Part shown: one piece after another, positions 520 through 48,312 of the stretch
Numbering within the stretch: position 1 is the stretch's first letter
Layout: every line of letters starts with the position of its first letter
Assembly (NCBI GenBank): GCA_024742605.1
Contig: JANSYC010000029.1
Span: forward strand, 1 to 49,272
Reading direction: 5' to 3'
DNA from: Alphaproteobacteria bacterium
GTDB taxonomy: Bacteria > Pseudomonadota > Alphaproteobacteria > Thalassobaculales > Thalassobaculaceae
DNA length: 49,272 bases
Translations under genes and position numbers: made by a program
The notes under the pieces: model-generated
What the model was told of the DNA's origin: nothing
The model's database searches: none
What the model saw: the letters and a program-made list of their open reading frames with translations, nothing else

Positions 520-774
520 ATGCTCGGCGTGTCCGAAAGCGCGATATCGAACGCCGAAAGCCTGATTTGGCTGGCCCAAGCCTATGTTTGGGTCGGCGCA
601 CCGGTGGCGGCGGTATTCCTCCTGTGGGGGATCGACCGTATCGATCACAGCGCACGCGGCAGCTATCTGTTCCGTCTTTTCGCGCTTCCCGGTGTGGTCG
701 GGCTCTGGCCCCTGGTCGTCACGCGCTGGATTTGGCTCGAGCTGCGGGGAGCAGATCGGCATGGATCAGGCTGA
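520..774 (+). CDS. Small two-helix membrane protein, redox operon gene 1
   Basis: An 84-aa protein with two predicted membrane helices, about residues 21-41 (YVWVGAPVAAVFLLWGI) and 51-71 (FALPGVVGLWPLVVTRWIW). No cofactor motif is visible and I recognise no family. Its TGA overlaps the ATG of the next gene (TGATG at 772-776), so it is very likely translationally coupled to the 56-aa protein and the Rieske fusion that follow. The context suggests a small subunit or assembly factor of a membrane redox complex; this is inference from position only. The ATG at 520 is preceded by GAGGCAGGG. Confidence 0.65.
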   Translation: MLGVSESAISNAESLIWLAQAYVWVGAPVAAVFLLWGIDRIDHSARGSYLFRLFALPGVVGLWPLVVTRWIWLELRGADRHGSG

Positions 775-944
775 TGCAGATCGATCTCCGACGCGCCCAT
801 CGAAGGATATGGCCGATCCTGACCCTGGTTCTGCTCGCGGGATTCCTGGCGGCGCTCCTGCTCCGTCCGACGCTTCCGGTCGAGACCACGCCGGTGCCGA
901 GCTTCAAGGGCTCGGCGGACCCACGGACCGGGAGGACCGGGTGA
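774..944 (+). CDS. 56-aa single-helix membrane protein, redox operon gene 2
   Basis: A 56-aa protein with a basic start (MQIDLRRAHRR), one strong membrane helix at about residues 13-30 and a short polar tail. The orientation should be N-in by the positive-inside rule. Its ATG overlaps the stop of the gene before, and its own stop overlaps the GTG of the gene after (GTGA at 941-944). Being locked between two overlapping genes is the main evidence that it is real. It has no recognised domain. It may be a small subunit or an anchor for the downstream Rieske/haem protein. Confidence 0.55.
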   Translation: MQIDLRRAHRRIWPILTLVLLAGFLAALLLRPTLPVETTPVPSFKGSADPRTGRTG

Positions 945-2014
945 GTGTCGGGTATCGACCGGTTCTCTGGAACGCCAACAAGCTTTGGTACGATGGGGCG
1001 TTGGGCCTTTTCGTCGGACTGTATCTGATCCTGTTCCTGCGTTATGCGCCGGGGCTCCTGGAATCTCCGGCGATCGGTGGTGCAGAACTGCGGATGCGCG
1101 CCTTTGGGTCCTGCGCCTTTCTGATGCTCACACTCATTCTCTGCATCGGGCCCTTGGCTCGGTTGGACACGCGGTTTCTGCCGCTGCTGTACAACCGTCG
1201 ACATTTCGGGGTGATGACCTTTTTCGTGGCGACCGCCCACCTCTGGGCGGTGTCCGGCTGGTATCTGGCGTTCTCGCCGCTCGACCCCTGGGTGGCGCTG
1301 CTGGTCTCCAATACGGATATCAGCTTTCTGGGATTTCCGTTTGAATGGCTCGGCATGGCAGCACTTGCGATCCTGTTCGCTATGGCGGCCACCAGCCACG
1401 ATTTCTGGCTTCATTTCCTGTCGCCGCCGATCTGGAAGCGACTGCATATGCTGGTCTATCTCTGCTACGGACTGGTGGTGATGCATGTGTCGCTCGGGCT
1501 CCTGCAGTCCGAGACCAGCCCGGCCTATCCCGTGATGGTCGGACTCAGCCTTCTGGTTGTGTCCGGCCTGCACATGATGGCCGCGCGCGCCGAGGCGAAG
1601 CGGGACCGTGAGCAGGCCGCTCCTCCCGTGGGAGGCGCAGATGGGGATTGGGTCAAAGCGGTGCGGATCGATGCCCTGACGCCCGATCACGGCCACACCG
1701 TCACCCTGCCGAACGGGGAGCGGGCGGCGGTGTTTCGGTATGGCGAGACCGGTGAGCGGATTTCGGCTCTCTCAAATGTCTGCGCACACCAGAACGGACC
1801 CTTGGGCGAGGGCCGAATGGTTTTCGGCTGCGTGACCTGCCCCTGGCATGGGTTTCAATACGATCCGGAGACCGGGTGCTCACCGCCGCCGTTCACCGAA
1901 AAGGTTCCGACCTTCCGGGTGCGTCGAGACGGTGACTTCGTGATGATTGATACCAAGGCGCTGCCCGCCGGCACCCGGACGCCGCCGATCCTTCTGAGCG
2001 AGGGTGGCGCATGA
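941..2014 (+). CDS. Ferric-reductase-like haem membrane domain fused to a Rieske [2Fe-2S] domain
   Basis: A 357-aa protein starting at GTG 941, which overlaps the previous stop. Residues ~18-215 form a multi-helix membrane domain of the ferric reductase-like type. His88 and His100, and His169 and His182, are spaced 12-13 residues apart as expected for bis-His b-haem ligands. Residues ~237-340 form a Rieske domain with C281-x-H283 and C300-x2-H303. The expected reaction is electron transfer between membrane haem and a [2Fe-2S] centre; no FAD/NAD-binding reductase domain is present, unlike classical ferric reductases. The direction of electron flow and the partner are unknown. The downstream gene overlaps it by 4 bases. 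The domain calls are firm, the function is not. Confidence 0.8.
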   Translation: MSVGYRPVLWNANKLWYDGALGLFVGLYLILFLRYAPGLLESPAIGGAELRMRAFGSCAFLMLTLILCIGPLARLDTRFLPLLYNRRHFGVMTFFVATAHLWAVSGWYLAFSPLDPWVALLVSNTDISFLGFPFEWLGMAALAILFAMAATSHDFWLHFLSPPIWKRLHMLVYLCYGLVVMHVSLGLLQSETSPAYPVMVGLSLLVVSGLHMMAARAEAKRDREQAAPPVGGADGDWVKAVRIDALTPDHGHTVTLPNGERAAVFRYGETGERISALSNVCAHQNGPLGEGRMVFGCVTCPWHGFQYDPETGCSPPPFTEKVPTFRVRRDGDFVMIDTKALPAGTRTPPILLSEGGA

Positions 2015-2772
2015 GCCGGCGTCCGTTCTTTGTCGGCTATCTGGCGATGCCGCGCGCGCTCGCCATGTTCCTGGCGGTGGTCACCGGCGTATTGTTGGGG
2101 ACGGGCGCGGTCGTTGCGACGGTGACAGTCCAGGAGCAAAATGACTGGGGCGACGGCGGCTTTCAGTGGGGAGAGGGACGACAGACCCGAACCGGCATCG
2201 TTATGGCGGACCCGTATCCCGTTCTGTTCCTGCCGCCGAATGCGGACCATCCTTTTGGTCAGACGCTTCCCCTGTCCGGGGCCGGCAAGACTGGCGTTCA
2301 GACGAGTGCCCGGGAGATGCAGGGCGCTCCGGTCGATGTCTCCGGAATCATCCTGCGCCGGGATGATTTCGAGATGATTCAGGTGTCCGGCAACAACGGC
2401 CTGGTGGCGGCGGCCGATCCGGCGCCTCTGGCCGGTTGGAGCGGCCCGGAGATCGAAGCTTTAGGCCGGGTCACGCTCAAGGGCGAGCTCTTGGACAGCA
2501 AATGCTTTCACGGGGCGATGCGTCCTGGGGAAGGCAAGACCCACAAGCTGTGCGCCAATCTGTGCCTCATCGGCGGCGTGCCGTTGACCTTCATGATCCG
2601 CCGGCCGGACGGCAGCGTGGAATCCCTGCTGATGGCCGATCAGGAGGGCCAGGAGGTCACGGGCCCGCTGCTCGACCATGTTTCCCAGTTTGTCGAGCTG
2701 ACGGGCGAGCTGGAGCGACGGGGCGACCTTTTGGTGTTCAAAGTCGATCCTGAGACGGTTCGTCGACTTTGA
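2011..2772 (+). CDS. Membrane-anchored protein with conserved Cys/His motif, redox operon gene 4
   Basis: A 253-aa protein with an N-terminal membrane helix at residues ~15-37 and a large, presumably periplasmic, domain. The notable part is a compact motif at residues 162-186: DSKCFHG, a conserved-looking RPGEGKTHK stretch, then CANLC and IGGV. Asp162, Cys165, His167, His178, Cys181 and Cys185 could bind a metal or cluster. I believe this motif recurs in proteins encoded beside Rieske proteins, but I cannot name a characterised family. The ATG overlaps the stop of the haem/Rieske gene (ATGA at 2011-2014), so the two proteins are likely partners. Confidence 0.7.
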   Translation: MSRRPFFVGYLAMPRALAMFLAVVTGVLLGTGAVVATVTVQEQNDWGDGGFQWGEGRQTRTGIVMADPYPVLFLPPNADHPFGQTLPLSGAGKTGVQTSAREMQGAPVDVSGIILRRDDFEMIQVSGNNGLVAAADPAPLAGWSGPEIEALGRVTLKGELLDSKCFHGAMRPGEGKTHKLCANLCLIGGVPLTFMIRRPDGSVESLLMADQEGQEVTGPLLDHVSQFVELTGELERRGDLLVFKVDPETVRRL

Positions 2773-2848: not shown

Positions 2849-4039
2849 TTGGCCCTACCCGAAACTCCGGACTTCGAATCCTATCCCGTGCATCAGAGGC
2901 TTGTTTCCGCGGCGGTTGAGCGGGGGGGCGTGCGCCTGCATTGGGCGGATGGGGGCCACTGTCTCTACCATCCTCTGACCTTGCGCGAACACGCCCCGGA
3001 TCCGGAGACAACCCACCCGGTCACGCGTGAACAATCCTTGATGTTGATCGATATCCCGGCTGGTCTTGAAGCGGCTTCGGCGGATGTCGATGGCGAGGGA
3101 GCATTGCAGGTCCGCTGGTCGACCGGGGAGGACAGCCGGTTTCACCCCGGCTGGCTGCGGGCACATGCCCCCGATCTGATGGGGGTGCCGGAAGAAGACC
3201 GGGATCCGCTGCCCGCGCGGGTGACCTGGGCCGGCGGGTTCGCCAATCAGATCCCGCGCCTTCACGGACCCGACGTGGTCGCGGGCGGACCCGCCCGTGA
3301 GGCGTGGGCCGAAGCGCTGCAGGTCTGGGGGGTCGCGATCCTGGAAGGGCTTGATGCCACGCCCGAGGTGGTCGAGACGGTGCCCGCCCTGCTGGGGCCG
3401 ATCCGGGAGACCAATTTCGGTAAGTTCTTCGATGTGATTTCGAAGCCGGATGCGGACTCGAACGCGTACACCTCCATGGCCTTGCCGCTGCACGTGGATC
3501 TGGCCACGCGGGAGTCCATGCCCGGCCTGCAGTTCCTGCATTGTATGAGCAATGAGGCGGATGGCGGCGACAGTATTCTGTCCGATGGGTTCTATCTGGC
3601 CGAGTGCCTGCGCGCAGAAGAACCTGAGCTGTTCGAGGCCCTGACCACCGTTCAGGTCACCGCCGCCAGCAAGGCCAAGTCCACCGATTACCGCTGGACC
3701 ACGCCGATCATCGGGACGGATGAGACCGGGGCGGTTTCCGAAATCCGTTGGAACCCCTGGCTGCGGGCGCCGATGAAAGCGTCCTTCGACGATGTGGACA
3801 AGGTCTATCGGGGACTCCGCTTCCTGTTTGAGCTGTCTGAGCGTCCTGAAAGCCGGGTGGTCACGCGTCTGGGCGCCGGTGACATGCTGTCATTCGACAA
3901 CCGCCGGGTTCTGCATGGCCGGACCGGTTATGACCCGAGTACCGGAGAACGCCGTTTGCGTGGCTGCTACGTCGACCGAGAGCATTTGACCTCAAGCCTG
4001 CGGATCGCCGAACGGCGCAAGAGGGCGGCACTCGTCTAG
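2849..4039 (+). CDS. Gamma-butyrobetaine hydroxylase-like Fe(II)/2-oxoglutarate dioxygenase
   Basis: A 396-aa protein of the TauD/TfdA superfamily with the two-part layout of gamma-butyrobetaine dioxygenase: an N-terminal DUF971-like region (residues ~15-110, with the RFHPGWLR type of strand) and a C-terminal catalytic domain. The iron triad is visible as H215-x-D217 (LPLHVDL) and the distal His356 (RRVLHGRTGY). The flanking pattern of PGLQFLHC and GGDSILSDGF is typical of this subfamily. The substrate is likely a trimethylammonium compound such as gamma-butyrobetaine or an analogue; the exact substrate cannot be told. The start is TTG 2849 after AGCGAGGAGAG. It lies 76 bases after the redox operon and may be co-transcribed with it. 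Confidence 0.85.
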   Translation: MALPETPDFESYPVHQRLVSAAVERGGVRLHWADGGHCLYHPLTLREHAPDPETTHPVTREQSLMLIDIPAGLEAASADVDGEGALQVRWSTGEDSRFHPGWLRAHAPDLMGVPEEDRDPLPARVTWAGGFANQIPRLHGPDVVAGGPAREAWAEALQVWGVAILEGLDATPEVVETVPALLGPIRETNFGKFFDVISKPDADSNAYTSMALPLHVDLATRESMPGLQFLHCMSNEADGGDSILSDGFYLAECLRAEEPELFEALTTVQVTAASKAKSTDYRWTTPIIGTDETGAVSEIRWNPWLRAPMKASFDDVDKVYRGLRFLFELSERPESRVVTRLGAGDMLSFDNRRVLHGRTGYDPSTGERRLRGCYVDREHLTSSLRIAERRKRAALV

Positions 4040-44616: not shown

Positions 44617-44652
44617 GAGAACGGGTGATTGATAGGGTTCTCACCCGTTCTC
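44617..44652 (+). promoter_or_regulatory. Perfect 12-bp inverted repeat in the leader of the Rieske pair
   Basis: GAGAACGGGTGA (44617-44628) and TCACCCGTTCTC (44641-44652) are exact complements with a 12-base loop. In RNA this is a strong hairpin ending 47 bases before the ATG at 44700. It could be a leader RNA element or a second operator; no known riboswitch core was recognised. Confidence 0.5.
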
Positions 44653-44699
44653 TTCCCGGTCAGGATACCGTTCAAGACAGATGCAAACGAGGATGTGTC

Positions 44700-46310
44700 A
44701 TGGCCAAAACGGAAGTCGCGCGCCTGGATGCGCTGGGAGACCGCGATCCGACCTACGCGATTGTGGGTGAGGTCGATCTCGTGGTGGTCCGGTTCGACAA
44801 CGATGTCTCTGTCTTCTACGGCCGATGCCTGCATCGCGGCGCACTGATGGCAGATGGGTTCGTGCGCGGCAACAATCTGATCTGTGGTGTTCACGACTGG
44901 GACTATCGCCTCGACACCGGGGTTTCCGAATACGCCAATGACGAGAAGCTGCCGAAGTTCAAATCCTGGATTGAGGACGGCGCCGTCCTGGTCGACGCGG
45001 ATGAGATCAATGGCTGGGCCCAGGATAATCCGCAGCCATTCGATCGTGACGCTTATTTGGGGCTGTATGCGGATACCAGTCACGGCACCGAGGAGGAGCC
45101 TTATGCCGGGCTGATCCAAACCTATGCGCGGGACGGTCTGTCGAAGACCGGTCATCACGGTATGGTCGATGCCATGGGCGTGCGGCGCGGTCAGTTACCG
45201 GATTGGGATGATATTCAGCTGATCACCGCTCAGCTGCATCGCGGGCCGCTGCTGGAAGAGGAACCGGTCGGCACCGACGTGCTGATCGGCCCGAACGCAC
45301 AGAAACCGCTCCGCCTGGAGATCCCTTTGCTTGTGTCCGACATGAGCTTTGGCGCCCTGTCCGAGCCCGCAAAGGTGGCGCTGGCGCGCGACGCCGAGCT
45401 GGCGGGAACCGGCATCTGTTCGGGCGAGGGTGGCATGCTGCCGGAGGAGCAGGCGGAGAATTCCCGTTACTTTTACGAACTCGCCTCAGCACGCTTCGGC
45501 TTCAGTTGGGAGAAACTGGCGGACGTGCAGGCCTTCCACTTCAAGGGCGGCCAGGGAGCAAAGACCGGAACTGGCGGCCATCTGCCGGGTGCCAAGGTGA
45601 AGGGAAAGATCGCCGAAGTGCGCGGCCTGGAGGAGGGGCAGGACGCGATCTCGCCGCCACGGTTTCCAGACTGGACCGAGATTTCGCAGATCAAGGATTT
45701 CGCGGACCAAGTGCGCGACCGCACCGGCGGAATTCCGATCGGCTACAAGCTCTCTGCCCAACATATCGAGAAGGATATCGACGCGGCCATAGAAGTCGGG
45801 GTCGACTACATCATCCTGGACGGACGCGGTGGTGGTACCGGCGCCGCCCCGGTGATTTTCCGCGACAACATTTCTGTGCCGACCATCCCGGCCTTGGCGC
45901 GGGCGCGGCGACATCTTGATCGCTTGGGGCGTGACGACATCAGCCTGGTGATCACCGGCGGGCTTCGTAAACCGGCTGATTTCGTGAAGGCTCTGGCATT
46001 GGGGGCGGACGCAGTCGCGATCTCCAATTCGGCCATGCAGGCGATCGGCTGTATCGCCATGCGGGCCTGCCATACCAACAACTGTCCGGTTGGGATCGCG
46101 ACCCAAAAGCCGCATCTGGTCTCTCGTCTGGTGGTTGAGCAATCGGCGCTTCGGCTCAAGAACTTCTTCGATGCCTCGGTTGAGCTTATGCAGGTAATGG
46201 CGCGGGCCTGTGGCCACGATCACCTGTCCGGTTTTGATCTGGAAGACCTGACGACGTGGAAGAAGGATATGGCCGAGCTGTCGGGTGTGCCTTTTGGTGG
46301 GGTTGCCTAG
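44700..46310 (+). CDS. Rieske domain fused to an FMN/[3Fe-4S] glutamate-synthase-type domain
   Basis: A 536-aa fusion. Residues ~5-100 are a Rieske-like domain with C43-x-H45 and C62-x2-H65. From ~170 on is the glutamate synthase central/FMN barrel (GTGICSGEGGMLPEEQ, HFKGGQGAKTGTGGHLPG, YIILDGRGGGTGAAP). The three Cys of the [3Fe-4S] motif, C451-x5-C457-x4-C462, are complete (CIAMRACHTNNCPVGIATQ). There is no glutaminase domain, so an amide nitrogen cannot come from its own chain. By family it should pass electrons between FMN and the clusters and act on an amino/keto acid; the substrate is unknown. ATG 44700 has ACGAGGA upstream. The next gene, 25 bases on, also begins with a Rieske domain. 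Confidence 0.85.
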   Translation: MAKTEVARLDALGDRDPTYAIVGEVDLVVVRFDNDVSVFYGRCLHRGALMADGFVRGNNLICGVHDWDYRLDTGVSEYANDEKLPKFKSWIEDGAVLVDADEINGWAQDNPQPFDRDAYLGLYADTSHGTEEEPYAGLIQTYARDGLSKTGHHGMVDAMGVRRGQLPDWDDIQLITAQLHRGPLLEEEPVGTDVLIGPNAQKPLRLEIPLLVSDMSFGALSEPAKVALARDAELAGTGICSGEGGMLPEEQAENSRYFYELASARFGFSWEKLADVQAFHFKGGQGAKTGTGGHLPGAKVKGKIAEVRGLEEGQDAISPPRFPDWTEISQIKDFADQVRDRTGGIPIGYKLSAQHIEKDIDAAIEVGVDYIILDGRGGGTGAAPVIFRDNISVPTIPALARARRHLDRLGRDDISLVITGGLRKPADFVKALALGADAVAISNSAMQAIGCIAMRACHTNNCPVGIATQKPHLVSRLVVEQSALRLKNFFDASVELMQVMARACGHDHLSGFDLEDLTTWKKDMAELSGVPFGGVA

Positions 46311-46335
46311 GCAGCCTTTGGACCGGGAGATCGCG

Positions 46336-48312
46336 ATGAATGAGCAGATCTTGAACTGGGTCGCGGTCGCCGCCGAGGGCGAACTTCCCGAAGGTCGGGT
46401 CAAGACCGTCACAGCCGGTACCAAGACCCTGTGCCTGTCCCATTTCGAGGGCAAATGGGCGGCGATGGACAATCGGTGTCCGCACCAGGGCGGACCGCTC
46501 GGCGAAGGCTCTATCGAGACTGGGAGCGACGGCAAGTGCTGGATTCGCTGCCCCTGGCACGGCTGGGATTTTGATCCGCTGACAGGCGCCCCTCCGGGAG
46601 GTCATGAGGACAGCGGACAGGAGGTCTTTCCGGTCAAGGTGGAGGACGGCAGGATCCTGGTCGGCCTGGAACCGGAGCCGGACCATGTCCGCACCGTCAC
46701 CGACGCCATGGCCGAGACCATGGTGAACTGGGGCGTCAAGCGGGTGTTCGGTATGGTCGGGCACTCCAACCTCGGCCTTTCGGAGGCGATCCGTCGCCGC
46801 ACGGTGGCGGGTGAGATGTCCTATGTCGGTATCCGGCATGAAGGGGCCGCCGCCTTTGCCGCCTCTGCCTATGGCAAGCTGACCGGGCGGCCTGCCGCCT
46901 GTCTGGCAATTGCGGGGCCGGGGGCGACCAACCTCCTGACGGGGCTCTGGGATGCCAAGGTCGACCGGTCGCCGGTGCTGGCATTGACCGGACAGGTTCA
47001 GACCCAGGTTTTTGGGCCCGGCGCATTCCAGGATATCGACCTCAAATCCGCGTTCCAAGGCGTGGCGCGGTTCTCGCAACCGGTGCTCGCAGGCTCCAGA
47101 CATGTCGAGCTGATGACGTTGGCGTGCAAGACCGCGATCGTCGAACGGGACGTGGCCCATCTGATATTGCCCGATGATGTCCAGACGGTTTCGAGCGACG
47201 CTCCCGCGGGTGGCCCGAACGGGCGTATCGGTGGAGCCGCTGTGATCCCGGCGGAAGAGGACGTCGCGGCCGCCGCCGAGATGATCAACGCGGCGAAGCG
47301 CCCGATCTTCGTCATGGGCCACGGAGCGGTCGAGGCGCGCGGGGCGGTGATCGATCTCGCCGAGCGGCTGGGTGCTCCGGTGCTGACCACCTTCAAGGGA
47401 AAGGGCCTGATCCCCGACACCCATCCGAATGCGGCGGGTGTCCTGGGGCGTTCCGGAACGCCGATCGCGAGCTGGTTCATGAATGAGGCCGACTTGATCA
47501 TCGCGCTCGGCTCGTCCTTTGCGAACCACACTGGGATCGAGCCAACGAAGCCGATTATTCAGGTGGATTTCGAGCGCATGCAGTTGGGCAAGTTTCATCC
47601 CGTGGCGCTGCCGATCTGGGGGGAGCTGTCGGCATTTTGCACCGCTCTCCTACCGCGGCTTGTGGCCGCTGCCGACAGGGCCGACCAGGTGTCGGAGTTG
47701 GTAGACCGGTGGCGGATATGGCGCGCCGAGAAGGAGACTCGACGTTCCGAAACCCGGGGCCGTGGCGTGCATTCGGCCGCGCTCTTCCAGACACTGTCTG
47801 AACTCTGTCCGGAAGACGCAATCATCGCCGTTGACGTTGGCAATAACACCTATTCGTTCGGGCGCTATTTCGAGCCGCGGGGCCAGCGCGTGCTGATGTC
47901 GGGGTATCTCGGATCGATCGGTTTCGGTTTCCCCGCGGCCATGGGTGCCTGGGCTGCAACACAGGATTTCGTGGAATACGCCGGGCGCAAGGTGATCTGC
48001 ATTTCCGGGGACGGCGGCTTTGGCCAATACGCGATGGAAGTTACCACGGCCGTGAAATACGGCATGGACATCACCCATGTCCTTCTCAACAACGCCGAAC
48101 TCGGCAAGATCTCGAAAGAGCAGAGGGCGGGTGACTGGCCGGTGTGGGAGACCAGTCTGGTCAATCCCTCATTCTCTGCGTTCGCACGGTTGTGTGGCGG
48201 CAAAGGGGTGAAGGTGACGGATGCGAACGCGTTCGCCGCCGCCTTCACCGATGCCTTACGGTATCCCGGACCAGCTTTGGTCGAGGTCGAGACCGACGTG
48301 GAACTGATTTAG
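46336..48312 (+). CDS. Rieske domain fused to a ThDP-dependent pyruvate oxidase/acetolactate synthase-like enzyme
   Basis: A 658-aa fusion. Residues 1-110 are a Rieske domain with C48-x-H50 and C72-x2-H75 (RCPHQGGPLGEG and CPWHGWDFDP). From ~118 a three-domain ThDP enzyme follows: pyrimidine-binding domain with catalytic Glu169 (GIRHEGAAAFAASAYGKLTG), a central domain (~315-440) and the pyrophosphate-binding domain with GDG 558-560 and NN 585-586. All ThDP motifs are intact. It resembles pyruvate oxidase or 2-oxo acid decarboxylating enzymes with a Rieske electron outlet; the substrate is not known. ATG 46336 has GGGAGA upstream. It is 25 bases after the Rieske-FMN gene, so the two are one operon. 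Confidence 0.88.
   Translation: MNEQILNWVAVAAEGELPEGRVKTVTAGTKTLCLSHFEGKWAAMDNRCPHQGGPLGEGSIETGSDGKCWIRCPWHGWDFDPLTGAPPGGHEDSGQEVFPVKVEDGRILVGLEPEPDHVRTVTDAMAETMVNWGVKRVFGMVGHSNLGLSEAIRRRTVAGEMSYVGIRHEGAAAFAASAYGKLTGRPAACLAIAGPGATNLLTGLWDAKVDRSPVLALTGQVQTQVFGPGAFQDIDLKSAFQGVARFSQPVLAGSRHVELMTLACKTAIVERDVAHLILPDDVQTVSSDAPAGGPNGRIGGAAVIPAEEDVAAAAEMINAAKRPIFVMGHGAVEARGAVIDLAERLGAPVLTTFKGKGLIPDTHPNAAGVLGRSGTPIASWFMNEADLIIALGSSFANHTGIEPTKPIIQVDFERMQLGKFHPVALPIWGELSAFCTALLPRLVAAADRADQVSELVDRWRIWRAEKETRRSETRGRGVHSAALFQTLSELCPEDAIIAVDVGNNTYSFGRYFEPRGQRVLMSGYLGSIGFGFPAAMGAWAATQDFVEYAGRKVICISGDGGFGQYAMEVTTAVKYGMDITHVLLNNAELGKISKEQRAGDWPVWETSLVNPSFSAFARLCGGKGVKVTDANAFAAAFTDALRYPGPALVEVETDVELI

Follow-up and report, generated by a model that had tools for sequence, protein, structure and literature searches.

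A conserved gene module built on a ferric-reductase–Rieske fusion: a candidate membrane electron-transfer complex for Rieske-tagged enzymes

Four overlapping genes, here called A, B, C, and D, may encode a membrane electron-transfer complex that is fed by Rieske-tagged enzymes and passes electrons outward to the periplasmic protein D, a reading given a probability of roughly 0.55. In most relatives, the product of a fifth gene, E, would belong to the same complex. The genes lie in a 49,272-nucleotide stretch of alphaproteobacterial DNA, referred to as the window. Support for the relay comes from the way A, B, and D track C (in 89 loci, in a sample of 387 genomes, and in the Planctomycetota), from linkage to the partner enzymes, from predicted folds, and from invariant residues. 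The features of the module are:

520–774, forward strand: gene A, 84 aa; small membrane protein with two hydrophobic segments; no family above cut-off
774–944, forward strand: gene B, 56 aa; single transmembrane segment and basic N-terminus; fused to A in 25 other loci
941–2014, forward strand: gene C, 357 aa; ferric-reductase (FRD) haem-type membrane domain fused to a Rieske domain
1106–1477, forward strand: Ferric_reduct domain of C, residues 56–179 (PF01794)
1649–1915, forward strand: Rieske [2Fe-2S] domain of C, residues 237–325 (PF00355)
2011–2772, forward strand: gene D, 253 aa; N-terminal membrane helix followed by two OB-like barrel domains, predicted periplasmic
2503–2565, forward strand: Cys/His motif of D, C-x12-H-x2-C-x3-C (C165, H178, C181, C185)

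The initial annotation had described four genes that overlap at every junction, and a direct reading of the sequence agrees. Genes A and B share 1 base at GGCTGATGCAGA (TGATG), B and C share 4 bases at CCGGGTGAGTG (GTGA, with the GTG start of C at 941), and C and D share 4 bases at GCGCATGAGC (ATGA). Hydropathy places two transmembrane segments in A, one in B, and one in D; A and B are the two tiny membrane proteins of that annotation, and they are real genes, with homologues that are widely kept. Searches with Pfam and NCBIfam profiles gave no family above cut-off for A, B, or D.

Both domains first proposed for gene C have profile support: the ferric-reductase-like haem domain matches PF01794 at 43.3 bits (cut-off 28), and the Rieske domain matches PF00355 at 46.6 bits (cut-off 20.3). 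These are the only profiles that match, and the profile search found no FAD or NAD(P) domain in C, as had also been claimed. The Rieske ligand-type residues C281, H283, C300, and H303 (C-x-H ... C-x2-H) are invariant in a set of about 70 C homologues, as are histidines H88, H100, H153, H169, H182, and H211. Alignment with the MsrQ of the same genome pairs H100, H169, and H182 with three of the canonical FRD histidines and places R86 at the first canonical position; H88, H153, and H211 are not common to that MsrQ. Under the superfamily's test for haem histidines in TM3 and TM5, H100, H169, and H182 are the putative haem histidines, being invariant and MsrQ-aligned. According to a survey of the FRD superfamily (PMC3591440), proteins with the YedZ/STEAP1 residue pattern, as in C, probably carry the outer haem alone. 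The same survey defines NOX and long-form FRD proteins by four canonical histidines, and C, with R86 at the first position, falls outside that group; it also lacks the FAD- and NADPH-binding domains of the group. A NOX-like two-haem domain with ligand pairs H88/H169 and H100/H182 was considered and withdrawn, because the MsrQ alignment assigns the first canonical position to R86 rather than to H88.

The structural model of C (pLDDT 88) has six long membrane helices. Its membrane part matches the STEAP/NOX fold, with 7tai_A giving Z 17.6 (rmsd 3.4, 204 aligned) and 5o0t giving Z 16.5 (rmsd 3.3, 184 aligned); the relation to STEAP is one of fold similarity only. Searching the sequences of solved structures with the FRD profile returned no match. 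C resembles MsrQ (YedZ), the haem subunit of MsrPQ, in the six-helix FRD fold, the three canonical histidines, and the arginine at the first canonical position, but adds the C-terminal Rieske domain and the three further invariant histidines H88, H153, and H211. In the working model, C would share transmembrane electron export with STEAP metalloreductases and NOX/FRE proteins, whereas it has a Rieske domain in place of their FAD/NAD(P)H or F420-type module. The C-terminal part is close in fold and cluster-ligand pattern to the Rieske ferredoxins of aromatic-ring dioxygenases (2e4q_C, Z 15.0, rmsd 2.0, 105 aligned). Unlike those ferredoxins, it is fused to a membrane haem domain, and no Rieske oxygenase is found consistently in the operon. 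The model for bc1-type Rieske subunits, TIGR01416, scores 13 bits against a cut-off of 97.4. From the charge pattern, the Rieske domain of C is probably cytosolic and the barrels of D periplasmic.

Gene D had been noted as an anchored protein with a C-x-H...H-x2-C-x3-C motif. The anchor and the H-x2-C-x3-C part stand, and C165-x12-H178-x2-C181-x3-C185 is invariant in all 78 correctly framed D proteins; the extra histidine of C-x-H, H167, occurs in only 1 of the 78 and is no part of the conserved site. In the model of D (pLDDT 92), the N-terminal helix is followed by two barrels similar to OB folds. A structure search gave only generic matches to the OB fold, a common arrangement, with Z up to 7.8; Foldseek gave no match to D at E < 0.001, and DUF5818 matches 2 of 66 D proteins weakly. 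In several other genomes (L169, L170, L173, L174, L177), stand-alone secreted relatives of the second domain, about 140 aa long, belong to a conserved cluster whose other members are SCO1/SenC and another Cys-rich secreted protein. In the cases inspected they share C-x12-H-x2-C-x3-C with D, but they have a single domain and are without link to C. The cluster suggests a copper or redox role for this nameless domain family, the kinship of D to these SCO1-linked proteins being by profile only.

The module is conserved well beyond the window. Full-length C occurs in 13 of the 61 genomes searched, that of the window included, and the order A-B-C-D is the same in all 12 others, with a short B in L048 and L050. 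Named genomes yielded at least 546 encoding stretches when scanned. The best 80, which were kept, come mostly from Alphaproteobacteria; one is labelled Planctomycetota and another Acidobacteriota. C is also encoded on five Rhizobium plasmids. Of 89 loci holding C, 86 also have A and 87 have B. The pattern breaks at two contig edges, L080 and L118, and at L119, where A lies about 1.9 kb upstream of C and a glycosidase-like gene stands between the two. The initial annotation would have been contradicted by relatives that keep the Rieske fusion and lose the small genes; these counts show the small genes retained nearly throughout. The overlap of B and C is 4 bases in 76 of the 89 loci; that of C and D, in a set of 82, is 4 bases in 50 and 1 base in 13. 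In 25 loci, A and B form a single open frame, which is good evidence that their products work as a single physical unit. Retention of A and B with C, and the fusion, back the earlier suggestion that the tight coupling reflects a physical unit; A to D may then form a stable complex of equal stoichiometry.

Sampling of whole lineages gives the same picture. Across 387 genomes sampled evenly from the class, 21 have C and 19 have a two-domain D, all 19 lying within those 21. Of 149 genomes from the phylum of L102 (labelled Planctomycetota), 9 have C. In the eight besides that of L102, A and D flank C in every case and B is recognised in five. In a tree of C, the Planctomycetota and Acidobacteriota sequences group together (98/88), apart from most alphaproteobacterial ones, so that these copies are unlikely to be stray contamination.

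The four-gene operon of the initial annotation is confirmed for A to D, but the unit is larger in most relatives, given that E follows D there and that soluble oxidoreductases carrying a Rieske domain stand in many of the operons. Gene E, defined by a mechanical criterion as a small open frame with a hydrophobic stretch directly 3′ of D, occurs in 59 of 85 loci and is absent from the window and from the sister genome L039. In the window, a gamma-butyrobetaine-dioxygenase-like gene lies just 3′ of D, at 2849–4039 (TIGR02409, 288 bits, below the cut-off of 415). A functional link of this gene to the module was considered and dropped, as it adjoins the module elsewhere only in L039.

Two Rieske-carrying oxidoreductases are encoded in the window itself:

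44625–46310, forward strand: Rieske domain and glutamate-synthase-like FMN enzyme (Rieske-GltS); keeps the C-x5-C-x4-C of the 3Fe-4S site; adjoins C in other genomes; start probably near 44700, since homologues begin near codon 26
46285–48312, forward strand: Rieske domain and pyruvate-oxidase-like ThDP enzyme (Rieske-ThDP, or Rieske-TPP); start probably near 46336; adjoins C in other genomes

Neighbour clustering of 84 named loci with C places Rieske-GltS near C in 43 and Rieske-ThDP in 28, with at least one Rieske-tagged partner in 46. Rieske-GltS lies on the strand of C in 40 of 42 cases. The Roseobacter-type loci L103, L111, L112, L121, and L127 have the stop of rieske-gltS overlapping the start of the fused A-B gene by 4 bases, and the planctomycete L216, of the same phylum as L102, has rieske-gltS, rieske-TPP, A, B, C, and D in that order on one strand. 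In the sample of 387 genomes, C and full-length Rieske-GltS occur together in 10 genomes against 0.65 expected (p = 1e-12, ignoring shared descent), and C and Rieske-TPP in 8 against 0.92 expected (p = 3e-7, again ignoring shared descent); 11 of the 21 genomes with C have no full-length Rieske-GltS. The nearest NCBIfam models for the Rieske-ThDP enzyme are pyruvate oxidases, at scores below their cut-offs. One sampled genus has C without D, and here C is followed by a fusion of a Rieske domain to an NADPH-dependent FMN reductase (FMN_red; L165:6257-7384, L166:3359-4474). The relay is weakened by the 38 of 84 loci that show no partner within the stretch covered, by the 42 kb between the window's own two partner genes and A–D, and by the presence of Rieske-ThDP genes in genomes without C. 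The initial annotation had left the electron source as quinol or a soluble partner; the linkage now favours soluble Rieske-tagged FMN and ThDP enzymes, and quinol is less favoured.

Some loci depart from this arrangement. At L102:11049-12298, only about the first 28 residues of D seem to remain, running on into a truncated glutamate-synthase-like frame, the result of a deletion or of a chimeric assembly; L102 was left out as evidence of adjacency, yet is one of the 43 loci counted for Rieske-GltS. In genomes without C (L180, L181, L184, L185), the Rieske-ThDP enzyme has an N-terminal extension, which in L180 comprises two CDGSH domains and a Fer4_19 domain, a predicted iron-sulphur chain in one polypeptide. 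It is as if the enzyme used another electron route where C is lacking.

In the proposed mechanism, C would be the conduit. Its membrane part would be a b-haem domain with six helices, belonging to the MsrQ/STEAP branch of the ferric-reductase superfamily, and its built-in Rieske [2Fe-2S] domain would serve as the cytosolic port in place of a flavin/NAD(P)H module. Soluble cytosolic enzymes would exchange electrons with C by Rieske–Rieske contact, and such exchange between two clusters of similar potential is plausible. The candidate donors are the glutamate-synthase-like FMN enzyme, the pyruvate-oxidase-like ThDP enzyme, or, in one genus, the Rieske–FMN-reductase fusion. Electrons would then cross the membrane through the haem of C to the periplasmic side, where the Cys/His site in the OB-like domain of D probably accepts them or acts as a metal-binding redox site. 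Structural or assembly roles may fall to A, B, and E. A bolder version can be put forward tentatively, in which a respiratory-type module lets several Rieske-tagged dehydrogenases plug into one FRD-Rieske hub and passes their electrons on to an OB-fold metalloprotein in the periplasm, with neither NAD(P)H nor the quinone pool involved.

The direction of electron flow is not fixed by the sequence, and gene linkage to the partners would also fit a reversed relay. Quinol or another membrane donor would then reduce the haem of C, the Rieske domain of C would supply the Rieske enzymes of the cytosol, for instance to drive a reduction by the glutamate-synthase-like FMN enzyme, and D would be structural or a sensor. 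Glutamate synthases do need reductant, the partner keeps its 3Fe-4S cysteines, and MsrQ is described as taking electrons from the respiratory chain (PMC5449189). The ThDP partner, however, resembles pyruvate oxidases, which release electrons, and reversal leaves the conserved periplasmic Cys/His motif of D without a role. Cytosol-directed electron flow through an FRD-type fold would also be unusual, and a reversed relay is considered rather unlikely. A system that reduces metals or assembles a metal centre is considered quite unlikely. Here C would reduce iron or copper for D, which would load or maintain a periplasmic metal centre, and the linked metabolic enzymes would be the electron supply only. 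The folds nearest to the membrane part of C are those of STEAP proteins, which PMC3591440 describes as ferric and cupric reductases, and D offers four invariant Cys/His residues and second-domain relatives that cluster with SCO1/SenC. That last relation is a profile match, however, and no metal transporter, cytochrome oxidase, or SCO1 gene stands consistently beside A–D in the clustered loci.

A form of MsrPQ methionine-sulphoxide repair is very improbable. MsrQ is the best NCBIfam model for C, and the three canonical histidines agree, but 44.4 bits is far below the cut-off of 130 (NF003831), the same genome encodes a separate MsrQ above it (148.3 bits), and no MsrP was seen among the recurrent neighbours in the neighbourhood clusters. 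The identification of C as MsrQ was rejected on the score and the separate MsrQ. Bacterial operons often contain overlaps of 1 or 4 bases, which would suit a chance packing of unrelated genes in a GC-rich operon, with no functional unit. This reading, to which almost no credence is given, is already contradicted by the conservation data: order, overlaps, and the A-B fusion are kept across families and phyla, and all 19 genomes with a two-domain D also hold C.

The outward relay from Rieske-tagged enzymes to D would extend what is known of this fold. FRD-fold proteins are known to take electrons from flavin/NADPH modules, flavin reductases, or the respiratory chain. The FRD-Rieske fusion is already known as an architecture, being model M4 of PMC3591440, whose figure legend gives the same two domains; the accessible sections give no operon, small subunits, D, or function for it. 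That entry was all that was found on Rieske-GltS, Rieske-TPP, or FRD-Rieske operons in a literature search covering mainly sources outside subscription journals, and within the same scope no paper turned up that describes D, the Rieske-tagged partners, or the A-B-C-D(-E) module as a whole. A cross-phylum module with a Rieske entry port, and a matching Rieske domain on its partner enzymes, would amount to a modular principle of electron wiring, undescribed in the literature found. Its range from Alphaproteobacteria to Planctomycetes, in company with soluble enzymes that bear a like iron-sulphur plug, suggests such a link between metabolism and the membrane. The model offers testable functions for four families that have none (A, B, D, and E) and for two odd fusions, the Rieske–glutamate synthase and the Rieske–ThDP enzyme, and the module is present in marine bacteria that can be cultured, among them Roseibium, Pseudovibrio, and Roseobacter.

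Two further genes recur near the module. A DUF1194 protein is encoded upstream of it in 14 loci (e.g., L064:3655-4389). A sodium/proton-type exchanger (PF00999) lies just upstream of rieske-gltS in Roseibium-type loci (e.g., L064:4517-5785; 18 loci in the cluster) and directly after D in a Pyrinomonadaceae locus (L119:11170-12417), and it could compensate for changes in charge or pH as electrons are exported.
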